Virus record (IMG/VR): IMGVR_UViG_3300046002_007228 | Span: 1 to 39,136 of that record | Length of the DNA: 39,136 bases | DNA from: a virus | Reading direction: 5' to 3' (one strand) | Shown here: positions 3,030-39,136 of the stretch, one piece after another | Numbering within the stretch: the stretch's first letter is position 1 | How the letters are laid out: every line of letters starts with the position of its first letter | Notes under the pieces: model-generated | What the model was told of the DNA's origin: nothing | Databases searched by the model: none | Seen by the model: the letters and a program-made list of their open reading frames with translations, nothing else | Position numbers and translations under genes: made by a program

Positions 3030-3074
3030 CGTTTCCGGGTCGGCCATTTCCGCTATTTCCGCAAATCGTTTCCG

Positions 3075-3245
3075 CTATTCAGGCGGTTTCAGCTTGGCTC
3101 TGCGCTTCTTCAGCTTCTCGGCTAAGGTCTTGATCGCCTGCCAATCATCGGGGTGCACGTACAGTTCCAGGCGCTTTAGACCAAGCGCCTCGCGGGCGGC
3201 TCGTAGAGCGGCTACGCGCTCGTTTGTGGTCTTGGGTTCGGTCAT
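3075..3245 (-). CDS. Small basic protein, unknown
   Basis: 56 aa. It has MTEPKTTNERVAALRAAREA at the start, then LKRLELYVHPDDWQAIK, then a Lys/Arg-rich helix. Small proteins with an RLELYVHPDDW-type strand followed by a helix are common in phages of betaproteobacteria, and the layout is compatible with a small ribbon-helix-helix-like DNA binder; that is a guess. The ATG at 3245 shares one base with the upstream stop (TAATG), so it is coupled. Last gene of the minus-strand group next to attP; its stop lies inside the last arm-like repeat. Confidence 0.6.
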   Translation of the reverse strand: MTEPKTTNERVAALRAAREALGLKRLELYVHPDDWQAIKTLAEKLKKRRAKLKPPE

Positions 3246-5140: not shown

Positions 5141-5388
5141 TGCATACTCGCTAGATCGAGCGTCCAGGCTTGGGACTGGACCATGTTCTTGACTTCAACG
5201 CCGCTGAGCTTCATGGTCGCGTACAGCCGGCCCACAACAGGCTCGCCGCCACGGTTCACATGATGATGCCACTTGTATAACTTGAGCCAGTCAATTTGCC
5301 CTTGTGATCGGGCGTGGCCGGTGATCGTCGACACTTCATCCCGGCTCAAAGTCAGGTCAGCGGCTTGCAGGTCAAACAGCGTGGTCAT
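5137..5388 (-). CDS. DUF4224-type protein, probable excisionase/directionality factor
   Basis: 83 aa. The stretch LTLSRDEVSTITGHARSQGQ then IDWLKLYKW...RGGEPVVGR matches the DUF4224 pattern: a short helix-turn-helix-like unit with a conserved Trp and a GEPVVxR strand. This family is typically found directly upstream of phage integrase genes, as here (ATGA overlap). Its size and position fit a recombination directionality factor, but that function is inferred. Both would be transcribed leftward from the early operon. Confidence 0.7.
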   Translation of the reverse strand: MTTLFDLQAADLTLSRDEVSTITGHARSQGQIDWLKLYKWHHHVNRGGEPVVGRLYATMKLSGVEVKNMVQSQAWTLDLASMQ

Positions 5389-5723
5389 GGCTTGTCGCCC
5401 CCTTGCTTTCCGATTTCAGCAGCAGCCCGGACGATTGCTCGGCGGGTTGCTGCGGCAAGGTCTTGCTGGTAATGCACGCTTTCATTGGCTTCGGCTATGC
5501 CGGCACGGTAGGCTGTAGCCTCATGCTCTAGGTAGGTTCCAGGCGTGACTTGAAGATTCAGCTTCACCGCCAGCCGCAGCGCATCGCCATCGTCAATCAC
5601 CGGGTTCCAAGGCTCGCCAGTTGGCTCGCACGCAAACTTCCATTCGTCATAGAAGCGAGTCCATGCGATCAGACGAATCCCCGCAGCCTTCGCGGCCAGC
5701 TCCAAAAGTTCGCGGTCTGTCAT
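5385..5723 (-). CDS. Hypothetical early protein, 112 aa
   Basis: Starts MTDRELLELAAKAAGIRLIA and carries the WNPVIDDGDALRLAVKLNLQ stretch common in small early proteins of temperate phages, then a helical C-terminus ending GGDKP. Overlaps both neighbours by ATGA. The WNPxxDDGDALRLAV signature is recurrent, but I know of no assigned function. Confidence 0.75.
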   Translation of the reverse strand: MTDRELLELAAKAAGIRLIAWTRFYDEWKFACEPTGEPWNPVIDDGDALRLAVKLNLQVTPGTYLEHEATAYRAGIAEANESVHYQQDLAAATRRAIVRAAAEIGKQGGDKP

Positions 5724-6016
5724 GGCTTCTCTCCTTTCGGCGCATCAACTTTTGGGTAGCTTGCCGTACCCTCGACAAATTCATTTTGAAATGGCAGGCA
5801 GTCGCACTCAGTCACCGGGTTGTCTCGGTACATGCCTTCGCAGTTTGTGCAGACAAAAACCTTACAGGTAATCCACCCGGCTTGCTCTTGCTGCACCAAC
5901 CGGCCCGCCAATTGATCCCGCTCGGCTGTTAGCTTTTGATGCGCGAGTTTGAGTGCGTCCAGTTCAAGCAGGGCTTCGTTTAGGTCAACTTGGTCTTGCG
6001 TTATTTCGGTATTCAT
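5720..6016 (-). CDS. Coiled-coil protein with Cys-rich C-terminal half
   Basis: 98 aa. Residues 5-45 form a heptad-rich helix (NEALLELDALKLAHQKLTAE). The C-terminal half has ITCKVFVCTNCEGM and CDCLPF, four or five Cys able to bind zinc. ATG 6016 is preceded by GGAGGTGG eight bases upstream, better spaced than the in-frame GTG at 6025. Its ATG overlaps the stop of the 36-aa gene upstream. Unknown function. Confidence 0.65.
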   Translation of the reverse strand: MNTEITQDQVDLNEALLELDALKLAHQKLTAERDQLAGRLVQQEQAGWITCKVFVCTNCEGMYRDNPVTECDCLPFQNEFVEGTASYPKVDAPKGEKP

Positions 6017-6123
6017 TGGTTCCACCTCCGGTATTGCCTAGTCCACAAGTCTCGCCTCAATCCGCTTGGCGGGAATACCCAGCAGGTAGTTCGAAGGCTC
6101 CGCTTGATCTTCCTGACCTTCAT
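6013..6123 (-). CDS. Micro-protein of 36 aa, strongly basic
   Basis: Begins MKVRKIKRSLRTTCWVFPPS and ends RRWNQ, with 10 Arg/Lys. GGAGG lies six bases before ATG 6123. Its start overlaps the upstream stop and its stop overlaps the downstream start, both as ATGA. This perfect fit in the coupled chain is the main evidence that it is a gene. Charge suggests nucleic-acid binding; nothing more can be said. Confidence 0.6.
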   Translation of the reverse strand: MKVRKIKRSLRTTCWVFPPSGLRRDLWTRQYRRWNQ

Positions 6124-16652: not shown

Positions 16653-17201
16653 ATGGCCCGTAAGGCAATTTCAAAGAAGACGCGCTTTGACGTTTTTAAG
16701 CGCGACCGGTTCACATGCCAATACTGCGGCGCAACCCCGCCCGGCGTGCTGCTGCACCTTGACCACATCCACCCGGTAGCAGAGGGCGGCGGCAACACGC
16801 TAGACAACCTGCTGACCGCTTGCGAGCCGTGCAATTTGGGCAAGGGCGCTCGCCTGCTGTCTGAAGTGCCCGCAGCGCTAAAAGACAAAGCCGCTGAGTT
16901 GATGGAGCGCGAGGCTCAGATTCGTGGCTACAACGAGGTTTTGCAATATCAGGCCGACCGGATCGCGGACGAAATGTGGTTCGTTGCCGGCGCTCTGCAA
17001 GGCTCGGAAGACCAGGCTAAGAACTTCGACCGGAAAAACCTTCAGTCGATCAAGATGTTTTTGGGGAAGCTCGCCTTTCAGCAAGTGCTTGATTCTGCGG
17101 AATCTGCTTACGCCAAGTTTTCGACCAGCCCCGTGCGGATGTTCTCTTACTTCTGCGGCATTTGCTGGGCCAAGATCAAGGAGGCAAAGCATGGCGACTG
17201 A
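16653..17201 (+). CDS. HNH endonuclease, free-standing
   Basis: 182 aa. N-terminal HNH with two zinc knuckles: FTCQYCGATP (Cys22, Cys25), LLHLDHIHPVAEGG (Asp37-His38 the core), NTLDNLLTACEPCNLGKG (Asn52, Cys57, Cys60). The C-terminal 110 residues are helical with no recognised domain and may bind DNA or a partner. Free-standing HNH genes in phage replication regions can be homing nucleases or nicking factors. ATG follows the previous stop directly; overlaps the next gene by 11 bases. Confidence 0.82.
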   Translation: MARKAISKKTRFDVFKRDRFTCQYCGATPPGVLLHLDHIHPVAEGGGNTLDNLLTACEPCNLGKGARLLSEVPAALKDKAAELMEREAQIRGYNEVLQYQADRIADEMWFVAGALQGSEDQAKNFDRKNLQSIKMFLGKLAFQQVLDSAESAYAKFSTSPVRMFSYFCGICWAKIKEAKHGD

Positions 17202-33770: not shown

Positions 33771-35012
33771 ATGGCTAATCCAAACATTTACCAACAGTTT
33801 CTAAGGCCCGTTCGCTCGGTGGCTGACTACAGCGAAGAGCTTGACCGTGGCGAGGCTAACGCGCTGAGCTTGGCTGCGGGCCGGCGCGAAGGTGCCATGC
33901 AAGAGCAGGACATGGCTCAAAAGGTGAGCGACCGCAACGCATTGCAGCGCATCGCCCAGCAGTACGCGGGCAATCAAGACGGCTTGATTGGCGGTCTTGA
34001 AGGCTCGGGAAGTCCCGCATTGATGGCTCAAGCCCAGGCTATGCGCAAGGCTCGGCTTGAAGGTCAAAACACGCAGTCGCAGATTGACGAGCGCGGCGTG
34101 AAGACTGCCGGCGAGAAGCAGAAGAACAGCGAAGCGGCACGCAAGGACGCGGTGCAGCTTGCGGCTTCTTTTGCTACGCCTGATGACGCGATTGCGTCGA
34201 TGAGTGAGGCGGTGCGCGGCGGCAAGATGCCGATGCAGATGGCGACCGCAATGGAGCGCATGATTCGCTCCGATCCGCAATGGCAACTGAAGCTAGTCAT
34301 GGGCGCGAACTCGCCCGAGAAGATGACGGACTTTCTAATGCCGCACTTGCAGACCGTCAACGCGGGCGGTTACTCGGTCAATCAGGCAGTGGACAAGAGG
34401 ACCGGCAAGCCTACCGAGACAGGCCGCACGGAGATCACTCAGAGCGCGGACAACCGGGCGACTGTCGGCGCAAGCATGGCGAACGCGGCGGCAACAAGAG
34501 ACGCGGCCAAAACTACAGCGGACGCCACGCGAGCCGCAGCAAATACCCAGCGCGACCAAGCTACTGAAATGAAGATGGCCGACGACTACCGGGCGCAATC
34601 AAAGGAGTTCGGGCAGTCTGCATCGGCTCACAAGCAGTTGTCAGCGACCCTTGATTCAGCAACAACTTCGCCGGCTGCAACGCTAGCAGCAGCCACCAAG
34701 TTCATGAAGATTCTTGATCCTGGATCAGTTGTGCGCGAATCTGAACTCGGTATGGCCTTGGCTGCGTCCGGCGTGATTGATCGAGCGATGAACTACGTCA
34801 GCACATTGCAGAGCGGGAAGAAGCTGACCAAGCAGCAGGCGGCAGACTTCAAGGACATCAGCAACAAGATGTTCGTCGCGGCCCAACAGGTTCAGCAAAC
34901 CATAGACGCCGACTACAAAGGCAAGGCGAAAGCCTACGGTGTGCGCCCCGAGATGGTCACCCAAGAACTTGGGCAGAACGCCAAGGCCGTTAGCTGGGGA
35001 GACCTCAAATAA
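33771..35012 (+). CDS. Ejection protein, P22 gp20-like
   Basis: 413 aa (P22 gp20 471). Almost wholly helical, Ala/Gln/Lys-rich: YSEELDRGEANALSLAAGRR, SEAARKDAVQLAASFATPDD, an Ala/Thr heptad segment near 230-270, and KQQAADFKDISNKMFVAAQQ near the end. Position between gp7- and gp16-like genes supports the call more than sequence does. Ejected with DNA. The stop shares a base with the next ATG (TAATG). Confidence 0.72.
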   Translation: MANPNIYQQFLRPVRSVADYSEELDRGEANALSLAAGRREGAMQEQDMAQKVSDRNALQRIAQQYAGNQDGLIGGLEGSGSPALMAQAQAMRKARLEGQNTQSQIDERGVKTAGEKQKNSEAARKDAVQLAASFATPDDAIASMSEAVRGGKMPMQMATAMERMIRSDPQWQLKLVMGANSPEKMTDFLMPHLQTVNAGGYSVNQAVDKRTGKPTETGRTEITQSADNRATVGASMANAAATRDAAKTTADATRAAANTQRDQATEMKMADDYRAQSKEFGQSASAHKQLSATLDSATTSPAATLAAATKFMKILDPGSVVRESELGMALAASGVIDRAMNYVSTLQSGKKLTKQQAADFKDISNKMFVAAQQVQQTIDADYKGKAKAYGVRPEMVTQELGQNAKAVSWGDLK

Positions 35013-36805
35013 TGGATGTGCAACTGCCTGACGGCACAATCCTGCGCGATGTTCCTGACGGGACAACAAAGGCGCAGATCGTTCAAAAGCTCAAGGCTAA
35101 CGGTCGGGCGGTTCCTGCCGACTGGCTCTCGCCTGCTACGGATGCGCAAAAGGCCGAGCCTTCGATGCTATCGCAAGCCGGCCAACACATCGGCAACGCT
35201 GCGGCGGGGCTGGTGCGTGGTGCTGGCTCTATCGGCGCAACCATCGTTGCACCTTACGACATCGCCAAGGATGCGCTGGCTGGCAAGGGGCTATCACTTG
35301 AGTCGAATCGCCAGCGCCGAGCTGACATGGACGGCGGGCTTCAAGAGATGGGCGCACAGCCTGGCTCCAAGGTATTCAAGGGGTTCAAACTTGGCGGAGA
35401 GGTGGCCGGCACTCTTGGTGCGGGCGGCGCAATTGCTAATGTGGTCGGGCGGGCTGCTCCGGTTTTCGCTGCGGCAAATCCAAACCTGCTAACCGCTATC
35501 AGTTCGGCAGGTATGGAGGCGGGCGGCGCAACAGGGCTAGCCAATCCGCTCATTCGGGCCGCAGGCGGCGCGATCAATGGCGGCGTGTCTGCTGGCATGG
35601 TGAACCCGGAAGATGCGGTTATGGGTGCGGCAGTTGGCGGCGCTTTGCCGGGAGCGGTGCAGATCGTAGGCAAGGCCAGCAATGCGCTTGGCCGCGTGGT
35701 GCGAGGACCCGCTCAAACTGCCGATGCATCCGCAGCCATCCAGGCGGCACGGGATAGCGGCTATGTGATTCCACCAACGCAGGCAAACCCGACGCTTCTC
35801 AATCGAGTTCTTGAGGGCTTTTCTGGAAAGATCACTACAGCCCAGAATGCAAGCGCCAAGAATCAAGCCGTCACCAACACCAAAGCAGCAACCGCCATCG
35901 GGCTACCTGCTGAAACCAAGATAACACCCGAGGTGCTGGATGGCGTCCGGGCGGAAGCCGGCAAGGCATACAAGGCCGTTTCGGAGTTGGGCACATTTGA
36001 CGCAACTGGAGTGGCGCTACCTGCATCCGTCAATGTAGCGAAGACACCAGCCAATACCCTCATGGGCAAACCTGAATCAGCCTCAGTCGATGCGGGCGAG
36101 GTGGTGAGGGCGTGGCGGCAAGCAAACGCAGACGCAACGGCCTATTTTCGACAGTACGCCCGCGATGCCAACCCTGAAACACTGACCAAGGCAAAGGGAG
36201 CGGCAAGCGAGGCCAAGAATCTTGACGGCTTCATGATGAAGAGCGTAGAGGGTGCACAGAAGGGCGCGCCGGCAAAACTAATCGCAGACCTTGCGTCTGG
36301 CGCAATTGACCAACAATCTTTTCTTCAAAAAGCTCTGGCCTTAACCAAACAGGGCAACCTAGCCGAAGAATTGAAAGCCGCTCGGACGCTGATTGCAAAA
36401 ACGCATAGCGTCGAAGATGCTTTAAACACGGCGACCGGCTCAATCGACGCCAAGAAGCTAGCCAAGCAGCTACAGAAAGGCAAGCCGCTGTCGGGCGATC
36501 TGAAGGAGGCCGCTGAGTTCGCTGGCCGGTTCCCCAAGGCATCGCAGACAGTGGAGCAAATGGGAAGCCTTCCGCAAACAAGCCCGCTTGACTGGAGCCT
36601 AGCTGGCGGGGCATCCATGGCGACGGGGAACCCGCTATTGCTTGCTGCTGCGCTGGCTAGGCCCGCATCGCGTGCCGTCACCCTGTCTCCGCTGGTTCAA
36701 AACAGGCTCGTACAGCGCCCTAACGCATTAAGCGCTCTGGCTATCCCTGATTCCGTCCGTCGCGCTGGTTATCAATCCGCTCTCCTCGCAGGTTCCGACC
36801 GGTGA
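35012..36805 (+). CDS. Ejection protein, P22 gp16-like
   Basis: 597 aa (P22 gp16 609). N-terminus VQLPDGTILRDVPDGTTKAQ, a module seen at the start of many large phage ejection proteins. A long Gly/Ala-rich hydrophobic region (about 55-230) could be membrane-interacting, and the C-terminal half is helical and basic (AKLIADLASGAIDQQSFLQK, LSGDLKEAAEFAGRFPKASQ). The last of the three ejected proteins; in P22 gp16 is needed to get DNA across the inner membrane. Its last 65 bases overlap a possible minus-strand micro-gene. Confidence 0.75.
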   Translation: MDVQLPDGTILRDVPDGTTKAQIVQKLKANGRAVPADWLSPATDAQKAEPSMLSQAGQHIGNAAAGLVRGAGSIGATIVAPYDIAKDALAGKGLSLESNRQRRADMDGGLQEMGAQPGSKVFKGFKLGGEVAGTLGAGGAIANVVGRAAPVFAAANPNLLTAISSAGMEAGGATGLANPLIRAAGGAINGGVSAGMVNPEDAVMGAAVGGALPGAVQIVGKASNALGRVVRGPAQTADASAAIQAARDSGYVIPPTQANPTLLNRVLEGFSGKITTAQNASAKNQAVTNTKAATAIGLPAETKITPEVLDGVRAEAGKAYKAVSELGTFDATGVALPASVNVAKTPANTLMGKPESASVDAGEVVRAWRQANADATAYFRQYARDANPETLTKAKGAASEAKNLDGFMMKSVEGAQKGAPAKLIADLASGAIDQQSFLQKALALTKQGNLAEELKAARTLIAKTHSVEDALNTATGSIDAKKLAKQLQKGKPLSGDLKEAAEFAGRFPKASQTVEQMGSLPQTSPLDWSLAGGASMATGNPLLLAAALARPASRAVTLSPLVQNRLVQRPNALSALAIPDSVRRAGYQSALLAGSDR

Positions 36806-36884
36806 CGCCGGTAAAGAAGCCCCATACGGCGACCAGCAGCAAGAGCGCACCCGCCTTCCATAAAACGAATTCGATGTGACTCAT
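36741..36884 (-). CDS. Possible antisense single-TM micro-protein, 47 aa
   Basis: MSHIEFVLWKAGALLLLVAV, then WGFFTGVTGRNLRGER and a hydrophilic tail. A clear TM helix near residues 8-26. No good ribosome site; it lies downstream of the HNH gene on the same strand and overlaps the end of the gp16-like gene. It might be a small membrane gene picked up with the endonuclease, or chance. The remaining bases of the 36806-36902 gap hold only the orphan tailspike start signal. Confidence 0.35.
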   Translation of the reverse strand: MSHIEFVLWKAGALLLLVAVWGFFTGVTGRNLRGERIDNQRDGRNQG

Positions 36885-36902
36885 CGGTAGGACACCAAAA
36901 CC

Positions 36903-36935
36903 ATGACAGCTTCCCTCTCAGGCGTTTTTAATCAA
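36903..36935 (+). pseudogene. Orphan 5' end of a tailspike gene, cut off by the HNH gene
   Basis: ATG 36903 opens MTASLSGVFNQ, nearly the same as the tailspike start MSASLSGVFNT at 37520. The bases differ at most third positions, so it is not a recent copy but a diverged allele. AGGA ten bases upstream is a fair ribosome site. The frame runs on through the complement of the HNH gene and stops at 37523, overlapping the true tailspike ATG. It is best read as the remnant of the tailspike leader, perhaps still used for translational coupling. Confidence 0.65.
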
Positions 36936-37436
36936 CTAGATAGTACACCCGACATGCAACCGGCGCTTCGCCTCGATATAGGCGGCGTGGGCATCTTCGG
37001 CGGTAGTGAATCTGCCAAGATAGACGAACTTCCCATAGACCTTAATTCGACTCAAGTAGCACCCCTTCTCTTTACTGAAGGTGGCACCAAAAAGCTTGGT
37101 TTCCGCGCCCCTTGGTTGGCTGCGCAGATTTTGCATGTTGACCGTTGCGCTCACGTCTCGCAGGTTTGCTATGCGGTTGTCAAGTGGGTCGCCGTTAATG
37201 TGGTCGATATGAGCATCCGGCCAACATCCGTAGGTGATGACCCATGCAATGCGATGCGCGTATTGACGCTTGCCGCCAAAACTAATCGCCCTGTATCCAT
37301 TACGCATCACGCATCCAGCAACCTCTCCCTTGAACCCCCTAGGGGGGCGATTGACGCGCCAAGTAAGTGCGCCGCTGTCTTGGTCGTAATGAAGAAGCTC
37401 GCGCAGCGTCTGCGCGGTAAGATCGGTCTTAGCCAT
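36936..37436 (-). CDS. HNH homing endonuclease with AP2-type DNA-binding domain
   Basis: 166 aa. The N-terminal region LTAQTLRELLHYDQDSGALT and the HNH core HIDHINGDPLDNRIANLRDV (His-Asn-Asn arrangement), then NMQNLRSQP, and a C-terminal AP2-like fold (GATFSKEKGCYLSRIKVYGK, YLGRFTTAEDAHAAYIEAKR). This two-domain layout is that of phage HNH homing endonucleases. GGAG six bases before ATG 37436. It is the only gene on the minus strand among the late structural genes and lies at the tailspike start, with an orphan tailspike start on the far side. Confidence 0.88.
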   Translation of the reverse strand: MAKTDLTAQTLRELLHYDQDSGALTWRVNRPPRGFKGEVAGCVMRNGYRAISFGGKRQYAHRIAWVITYGCWPDAHIDHINGDPLDNRIANLRDVSATVNMQNLRSQPRGAETKLFGATFSKEKGCYLSRIKVYGKFVYLGRFTTAEDAHAAYIEAKRRLHVGCTI

Positions 37437-37438
37437 GA

Positions 37439-37517
37439 TGCACTCCAGTTGCTGATTGGTCAGAGGCCCGCCCGTGTTAGCGCACGCGGTGGGCTTCGCT
37501 ATTTTAATTGGAGTGCA
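37439..37517. repeat. Inverted repeat carrying both ribosome sites, with an internal hairpin
   Basis: TGCACTCCAGTT (37439-37450) and AATTGGAGTGCA (37506-37517) are inverted with one mismatch. Each contains the GGAG ribosome site of one divergent gene: HNH leftward and tailspike rightward. Between them a hairpin of 14 pairs with one bulge (37463-37476/37483-37497, loop TTAGCG) is followed by TATTTT on the plus strand. It could attenuate transcripts entering the tailspike or slow ribosomes. Confidence 0.7.
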
Positions 37518-37519
37518 GT

Positions 37520-39136
37520 ATGAGCGCCAGCCTTTCGGGGGTGTTCAACACCCAATGTTTTACTGATTCCGGCGAGCCTGCTGCGGGCTATCGTCTTTAC
37601 ACGTTCGCACCCGCAACCACAACCCAAAAAACCGCCTACACAGACGCGGCGGCGACGGTCCCGCACAGCTACACAAGCGACGGCATCGGAGGTCAGTTCA
37701 TCGCATTGAACGCTCGCGGCGAGTTGCCGGCCCCGCTGTTCCTTACTTCGGGCGGCTATGACATCGCGCTGAAGACAGCAGGCGGCGCGACGGTGTGGAC
37801 GAGGCGAGCCGTGGGCGCATCAGATGCGGGGGCTTCGGCAGTTTTAGCGCTGACATCCGACTTCGCCAACTCCGCCGACGCAGCCAAAGGCGCAGGCCTA
37901 AGCGGCTTTGACTGGACGATCCTCTATGCGGCCCTGACGGCTGGCTGGGGAATTCGCACCGCGCAAAACCTGCCTAGCTTGCTGCAATACATCCCAGTTG
38001 CTGAGTGGGCCGCGATCCTGGCGGGCACATCGACCACGGATGTAACGAGCTACATTCAGACCGCGCTCAACACCGGCAAAACGCATTTTGCGCCGCGTGG
38101 CAAATACTGCGTATCGGCCACCACTGGCCTGACATTCGCGGCGGGTGGCGGCGGCATCGTCGGAGCCGGCAAGAATCACACGCTGTTCTTCGGCATCCTT
38201 GGCACTGGCGGCAGCTCGGCTCAGATTGCGGCTTACACAGCCGGTTCAATCTTCCGGCGTGCTTTTAATCCAGCGGGCACGAATGCCTATCTCGGCGGTG
38301 TGCGGCTGACTGACCTTGGCGTGATCCTGGCGCACCCGACTGCCTCAATCACAACAAGCGCGATACAAGTCGGTATTGATCTGCGCAACATCGGACGATT
38401 CGACATTGAGCGCGTGCATGTCGGAAACGATGTGCCGATTAGCTCATTCGTCGCTCGGGCTGCTGTTTCTGCCAGCTACAACGCGCAAGGCTACGGCATC
38501 ATTACCGGCTCGGTCGGCTCAAGCGATCCAGCCTACGCAGGCGGCGAGGTCGGCCATATCACGGGCTGCTCGGTGTGGGGTGCTTACAAAGGCATCGTGA
38601 TGGATGACGCTGTGTTTTCTCCGTCTTCTGCATCGCACGCCGTCAACGTCACCGGCTGCGACATCCAAGGCTGCCATTCTTTGCTCGCCCAAGAAAGCCA
38701 GTACACAGCCGGTTTTGTCTGGAGCCGCAACACCCTGCAAAACGTGCAGCGCCAACAAGGTAACGCCAGCCCCACATATTGCATGAGGATCGCCGGTTAT
38801 GGAAACGAGGTTTCGGACGGCGGCTACATCGAGGCAGGCACTTGCGATTACTTGCTGCGTCTCGACAGCACATCCAAAAACAACCGCATCAAGCTGAGCC
38901 ATTACGGCGCAACGACTATTGGCATTGCTGCAATTTCTGACGCTGGGTTGCGTAATCGGGTTGAGTGCTTCCAAGATGCCGGATCTTACCCTGGCGGCGT
39001 TGACTCATCTGGTCGGCCTGTTGTGCTGTTTGATCGTGCTTATGCCGAGTGCTCGATTACCTGCCATTACAGCGGCTCAGCAATGGTTGTGGATGGCGGC
39101 TTCGGCATCACGGTCACGCGGCCCACAACGGCTCCT
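37520..39136 (+). CDS. Tailspike protein, N-terminal part (continues at 1-354)
   Basis: ATG 37520 with GGAG six bases upstream; open to the end of the window and in frame with 1-354, giving about 613 aa. N-terminal 75 residues (LSGVFNTQCFTDSGEPAAGY, YTSDGIGGQFIALNARGELP) look like a particle-binding adaptor. From about residue 150 a right-handed beta-helix: TSYIQTALNTGKTHFAPRGK (the entry motif of pectate-lyase-like phage spikes), then Gly-rich coils. It should recognise and probably degrade host capsule or O-antigen. Catalytic acids cannot be assigned from sequence alone. Confidence 0.85.
   Translation, partial: MSASLSGVFNTQCFTDSGEPAAGYRLYTFAPATTTQKTAYTDAAATVPHSYTSDGIGGQFIALNARGELPAPLFLTSGGYDIALKTAGGATVWTRRAVGASDAGASAVLALTSDFANSADAAKGAGLSGFDWTILYAALTAGWGIRTAQNLPSLLQYIPVAEWAAILAGTSTTDVTSYIQTALNTGKTHFAPRGKYCVSATTGLTFAAGGGGIVGAGKNHTLFFGILGTGGSSAQIAAYTAGSIFRRAFNPAGTNAYLGGVRLTDLGVILAHPTASITTSAIQVGIDLRNIGRFDIERVHVGNDVPISSFVARAAVSASYNAQGYGIITGSVGSSDPAYAGGEVGHITGCSVWGAYKGIVMDDAVFSPSSASHAVNVTGCDIQGCHSLLAQESQYTAGFVWSRNTLQNVQRQQGNASPTYCMRIAGYGNEVSDGGYIEAGTCDYLLRLDSTSKNNRIKLSHYGATTIGIAAISDAGLRNRVECFQDAGSYPGGVDSSGRPVVLFDRAYAECSITCHYSGSAMVVDGGFGITVTRPTTAP
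39008..39133. repeat. Terminal 126-bp overlap with bases 1-126
   Basis: Bases 39008-39133 are identical to 1-126; the last three bases of the window do not match base 127 onward. This length is typical of an assembly k-mer overlap on a circular or circularly permuted molecule. A P22-type headful phage has circularly permuted ends, which agrees. It is not evidence of a real 126-bp terminal repeat. Confidence 0.85.

Follow-up and report, generated by a model that had tools for sequence, protein, structure and literature searches.

Fungal mitochondria harbour so-called mORF gene hybrids, known from atp6 of Allomyces and from atp6, atp9, cox2, and nad3 of Glomus (PMC3630166). In these, an essential gene has an endonuclease ORF of the LAGLIDADG or GIY-YIG type at its end; the functional version of that end is a diverged copy, and the native one persists as a relic. 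In Glomus atp6, for instance, identity between the two 3′ copies is 63.5% at the DNA level and 91% at the protein level (PMC3630166). In phages, the free-standing homing endonucleases MobE and MobA lie within nrdA of Aeromonas phage Aeh1 and gene 60 of T4, respectively, and split these genes (PMC2988022). Homing brings co-conversion of the flanks, and hairpins hide the ribosome sites of I-TevI, segB, and Aeh1 mobE on long transcripts (PMC2988022). Finally, exchange boundaries of phages can carry 'HEG-islands', with an HNH-3 type gene next to an essential gene of the tail module (PMC10448857).

How does the present locus compare? We think it rather probable that, in this podovirus, a free-standing HNH homing-type gene interrupts the 5′ end of the tailspike gene, where a relic leader stays in place and a respelled start does the work. 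The mORF hybrids would then be the closest known case and the phage locus their mirror image, with an endonuclease ORF next to a duplicated and diverged gene end in both. In the fungal hybrids, the replacement concerns the 3′ end of the gene, which stays ahead of the ORF; in the phage, it concerns the 5′ end, the HNH gene runs antisense, and the tailspike gains a new ribosome site and start. As with MobE and MobA, a free-standing homing endonuclease would reside within an essential phage gene; the host genes of these two are in pieces, whereas the tailspike is whole because its N-terminus is present again. The likeness to HEG-islands extends to the gene type, the tail-module neighbor, and the exchange boundary, but the locus holds a single nuclease gene, and its boundary can be placed exactly by the stranded gene start. 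The parts are ordinary; their arrangement is unusual.

The record analyzed here (the window, that is, the whole stretch) is a single metagenomic contig of one virus, 39,136 bases long. Its ends overlap, positions 39008-39133 being a copy of positions 1-126 (126 bases), followed by three mismatched bases; these last three bases of the record are probably wrong. Owing to the overlap, the record is circular or terminally redundant and represents an effectively closed genome of ~39 kb. Genes upstream of the tailspike are typical for a podovirus (portal, head closure, DNA ejection, and then a 597-aa virion protein, here called UP). The following features make up the locus:

35012..36805, plus strand: upstream virion-protein gene UP, 597 aa; left flank, with the gene order before the tail gene conserved
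36741..36884, minus strand: small membrane-type ORF, 47 aa (MSHIEFVLWKAGALLLLVAVWGFF..), just left of the native tailspike start
36903..36932, plus strand: orphan tailspike leader, ATG and nine codons (MTASLSGVFN), with AGGA at 36889-36892
36903..37523, plus strand: 206-codon frame beginning with the orphan ATG, on the strand opposite the HNH gene, and ending in ATGA on the tailspike start; putative translational feeder
36933..36935: junction CAA; leader homology stops at 36932, and the HNH stop codon is at 36936-36938
36936..37436, minus strand: HNH endonuclease gene, 166 aa, with an HNH_3 domain and an AP2-like C-terminal part (phrog_99, E 5e-58)
37439..37517: palindrome between the divergent starts; its outer arms (37434-37450 and 37506-37522) contain both Shine-Dalgarno sites
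37520..39136, plus strand: tailspike gene with working start MSASLSGVFNTQ; wraps the contig ends, resuming near base 127 and ending at 354

The first-pass annotation of this DNA had placed a complete antisense HNH gene between two tailspike starts, and our analysis agrees: the gene at 36936-37436 has an intact domain and conserved HNH residues. Its HNH_3 domain (PF13392) scores 54 bits against a cutoff of 24.8, and residues H61, D78, H79, N87, and N91 are invariant across the family alignment; the C-terminal AP2 match is weak (PF00847, E 0.0015, 19.2 bits, under the 33.3 cutoff). Since its '..CTI' C-terminus is common to other family members, the gene is not truncated. It is free-standing, outside any known intron or intein; an Rfam search yielded no intron match, and the HNH frame runs antisense to the host gene. 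None of its relatives (20 loci; 3086 phage records) exceeded 47% identity, and the contexts inspected were mostly unrelated loci. Elsewhere in the window, a second HNH-domain gene of another family (PF01844, 182 aa) is present at 16653-17201 on the plus strand.

The two starts had been given as MTASLSGVFNQ at 36903 and MSASLSGVFNT at 37520. These coordinates hold, but the match covers ten residues rather than eleven, the final Q and T not being homologous. Between MTASLSGVFN (36903-36932) and MSASLSGVFN (37520-37549), nine of ten residues are the same, as are 19 of 30 bases; all nine codons after the ATG are respelled and eight of these nine differences are silent, bearing out the earlier remark that the DNA of the two starts differs at most silent sites. 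The two leaders (10/10 and 9/10) are the only sites in the window matching the orphan 10-mer at seven or more of ten residues, the best match in 20 dinucleotide-shuffled windows being 5-6/10. The orphan peptide is identical to the intact tailspike start of L098/L026. At the DNA level, where comparisons rest on only 30 bp and on distant relatives, the orphan leader agrees with L098 and with L105 at 25/30 positions, and the working start with L099 at 24/30 and with L098, L100, L101, and L109 at 23/30. The leaders are distinct alleles, for each finds a closer match among independent phages than in its counterpart. Likewise, the ribosome site before the orphan (TAGGAC) is of a type found in L003, L035, L037, and L038, and that before the working start (TGGAGTG) of a type found in L002, L029, and L030. 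The intact tailspike frame suggests that the working copy is functional.

Which of the leaders is at home? UP has homologues of up to 60% protein identity, mostly with the tail gene next. The 47-aa antisense ORF that follows (36741-36884) is probably a real, unannotated small gene, and similar small antisense ORFs occupy the same gap in more than ten HNH-free relatives (e.g. L028, L033, L044-L047, L051, L059, and L103). Where such an ORF is present, the relatives' tail gene starts about 105-140 bp past the UP stop; without it, the tail gene follows directly. The orphan ATG lies 97 bp past the UP stop and 18 bp beyond the start of the small ORF, the latter spacing falling within the relatives' range. 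Because its spacing to both landmarks fits the HNH-free relatives, the orphan occupies the native tailspike start position, and gene order thus supports its identity as the stranded 5′ end of the resident tailspike. Occupying the native place, it would therefore be what was left behind. Of the two options in the first-pass annotation, namely that the intruder 'brought, or left' the first codons, it is the second that applies to the orphan; the working start is the one on the HNH side.

Some 30 distinct contigs of viruses were retrieved with the tailspike N-terminus, along with a prophage-like locus in Janthinobacterium and a betaproteobacterial bin. The leader is present once per relative, continuing through FNxQ(Q/E)F into the same N-terminal domain. 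This is in keeping with the first-pass proposal: HNH-free relatives show one continuous leader and none has both starts (about 30 contigs of the same tailspike family), and tblastn found no HNH gene in the tailspike-relative loci tested. Neither of the two observations that the first-pass annotation had named as refuting it turned up. Two diverged leaders would likewise result if the ancestor had carried two tailspike genes in tandem, both beginning with this leader, and if the HNH gene had filled the place of the first after its deletion, but since none of the retrieved relatives has two leaders, we consider such an ancestry very unlikely. A DNA search of the phage collection gave no match, the tailspike N-terminus matched phage records at only about 30-40%, and a scan for further orphans with the leader pattern returned only two non-tailspike sequences and one known relative. 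The 25-mer across the junction was absent from all other viral contigs, which, together with the record being a single contig, is what an assembly chimera of two phages from one metagenome would produce. That the two leaders have no long word in common for misjoining, that the flanks are syntenic on both sides, and that the contig closes on itself through its 126-bp end overlap make an artifact of this kind extremely improbable.

Because related UP genes precede many unrelated tail gene starts, the gap after UP is, judging from gene order, an exchange boundary, in agreement with the finding that phage exchange boundaries carry nuclease genes (PMC10448857). The site is empty in about 30 HNH-free loci and occupied in one, L053, by a distant HNH: a 36%-identical gene (5256-5744, minus strand), likewise antisense, lies in this gap, and the tail gene behind it is of a different type and undamaged. 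No stranded start is present in L053, and its relative L052 has only 11 bp in the gap. A separate observation concerns L070, where a GIY-YIG-like ORF (5534-6094), that is, a member of another nuclease family, sits between two short tail genes just after UP.

Could the tailspike and a passenger HNH gene simply have been swapped in by illegitimate recombination, without nuclease action, leaving the leader as a scar? The junction coincides with a frequent exchange boundary, as this plain module exchange would predict. Moreover, DNA identity to the same relatives is about 70% for the tailspike body and 77-80% for the working start, and given these similar distances, both may form one unit that could have moved together. 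However, leader homology ends at codon 10, so that the join falls inside the homologous leader and three bases from the HNH stop, where a random join need not fall. We therefore regard module exchange without the nuclease as possible, albeit fairly unlikely.

The interruption by a homing-type gene that we favor would instead most likely have proceeded as follows. In a donor phage, the HNH gene would have stood antisense in the gap preceding the tailspike, much like the HNH gene in L053. In a mixed infection with this donor, the resident leader would have been cut near codon 10 and then repaired on the donor template. Homologous recombination would have resolved the tailspike side of the repair, and the other end, beside the HNH stop codon, would have been joined without the help of homology. 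Of the resident tailspike, severed behind codon 10, the ribosome site and the first ten codons (36889-36932) would thereby have stayed in place as a relic. Beyond the HNH gene, the working start would contribute its own ribosome site and a respelled copy of the N-terminal peptide, so that the essential tailspike protein stays whole. The cleavage, the donor, the direction of transfer, and regulation by the hairpin described below are steps that we infer. Two points weigh against this account: clean homing does not typically produce a left join without homology, and the HNH relatives mostly occupy unrelated loci. A short TTTTAAT repeat found at either edge might be taken for an insertion footprint, a reading that we discarded because it leaves the duplicated start unexplained.

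Two features of the locus are absent from the first-pass annotation, namely a palindrome predicted to hide both ribosome sites and a 206-codon frame linking the two starts. As to the former, the 83-bp gap between the HNH ATG and the tailspike ATG has a predicted fold of -48 kcal/mol (z -7.3; 0 of 200 shuffles as stable), and only one other region in the window folds more strongly. The HNH and tailspike initiation regions (37434-37522) are inverted copies of each other at 14 of 17 bases; TGGAGTGCA in the outer arms, unique in the window, provides the ribosome site for both genes alike. For transcripts of either strand that run across the palindrome, both ribosome sites have a predicted unpaired probability of 0, and the same holds for the HNH site given at least 83 nt upstream. 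Ribosome sites of HNH-free relatives are mostly predicted to be 0.2-0.97 unpaired, with L002 at 0.02-0.19 depending on the fold window. A scan of 36700-37700, covering sigma-70-like sites only, revealed no such promoter.

By analogy with the hairpins over I-TevI, segB, and mobE, with which it would share a stable RNA structure (here predicted) over an endonuclease ribosome site, the palindrome probably keeps both the HNH gene and the tailspike untranslated on read-through transcripts. It differs from them in that one palindrome would mask two divergent genes, and in that a sigma-70-like internal promoter was not found. According to the fold model, the hairpin would silence the tailspike as well, save where transcripts begin within it or ribosomes unfold it. 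Such a palindrome is not a general trait of divergent HNH gaps: among the five compared, it is strong in the window, moderate in L007 and L053, and absent in L131 and L132. The gap of L053 also folds strongly (z about -3.5 to -4). In L007, where an antisense HNH gene precedes a tail-fibre-like gene, a palindromic gap (3037-3095; z -5.1) overlaps the HNH ribosome site, representing a weaker parallel to the palindrome in the window. An Rfam match to SymR over the hairpin was sub-threshold (23.8 bits versus a cutoff of 61) and taken as chance.

The second feature, the 206-codon frame, runs from the orphan start in register with the HNH codons of the opposite strand up to an ATGA whose ATG is at 37520. 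There is no TTA, CTA, or TCA among the 12 leucine and six serine codons of the HNH gene. Under a model of phage codon usage, a 167-codon antisense frame is open in register with a chance of 6%, and 9% of the 167-codon segments in other genes are open (379 of 4173). The openness of the frame was noticed after the fact and is suggestive only. Initially put down to chance, the frame was kept as the basis of a rival because chance accounts for openness in only 6-9%. This rival, which adds to the relic model rather than excluding it, holds that the orphan start is still used: ribosomes would translate the 206 codons, open the hairpin, and restart at the ATGA, the tailspike being expressed through translational coupling. 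An undecayed orphan peptide, an open frame ending exactly on the tailspike start, a tailspike ribosome site predicted to be fully paired in palindrome-crossing transcripts, and the negative promoter scan would all be in line with such use. On the other hand, the same 6-9% means that an open antisense frame can arise by chance, the AGGA is 10 nt from the orphan ATG, longer than the usual spacing, and phage promoters of other than the sigma-70 type fall outside the scan. We consider continued use of the orphan start unlikely. The combined scenario ('home-and-rescue'), wherein a nuclease invades an essential gene, a respelled start rescues it, and the old start serves as a ribosome entry via the 206-codon frame, strikes us as distinctly doubtful.

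What does this locus mean for phage biology? The stranded leader preserves, at single-base resolution, the point at which a segment with a nuclease gene was joined to a receptor-binding gene. The arrangement suggests a route by which homing genes may enter an essential gene without destroying it and, if the respelled start escapes the nuclease, it would constitute a natural counterpart of engineered recoded rescue drives. The reading of the 206-codon frame as a translational feeder would be striking if true. With this locus, it becomes a testable question whether homing genes help tailspikes to pass from phage to phage.
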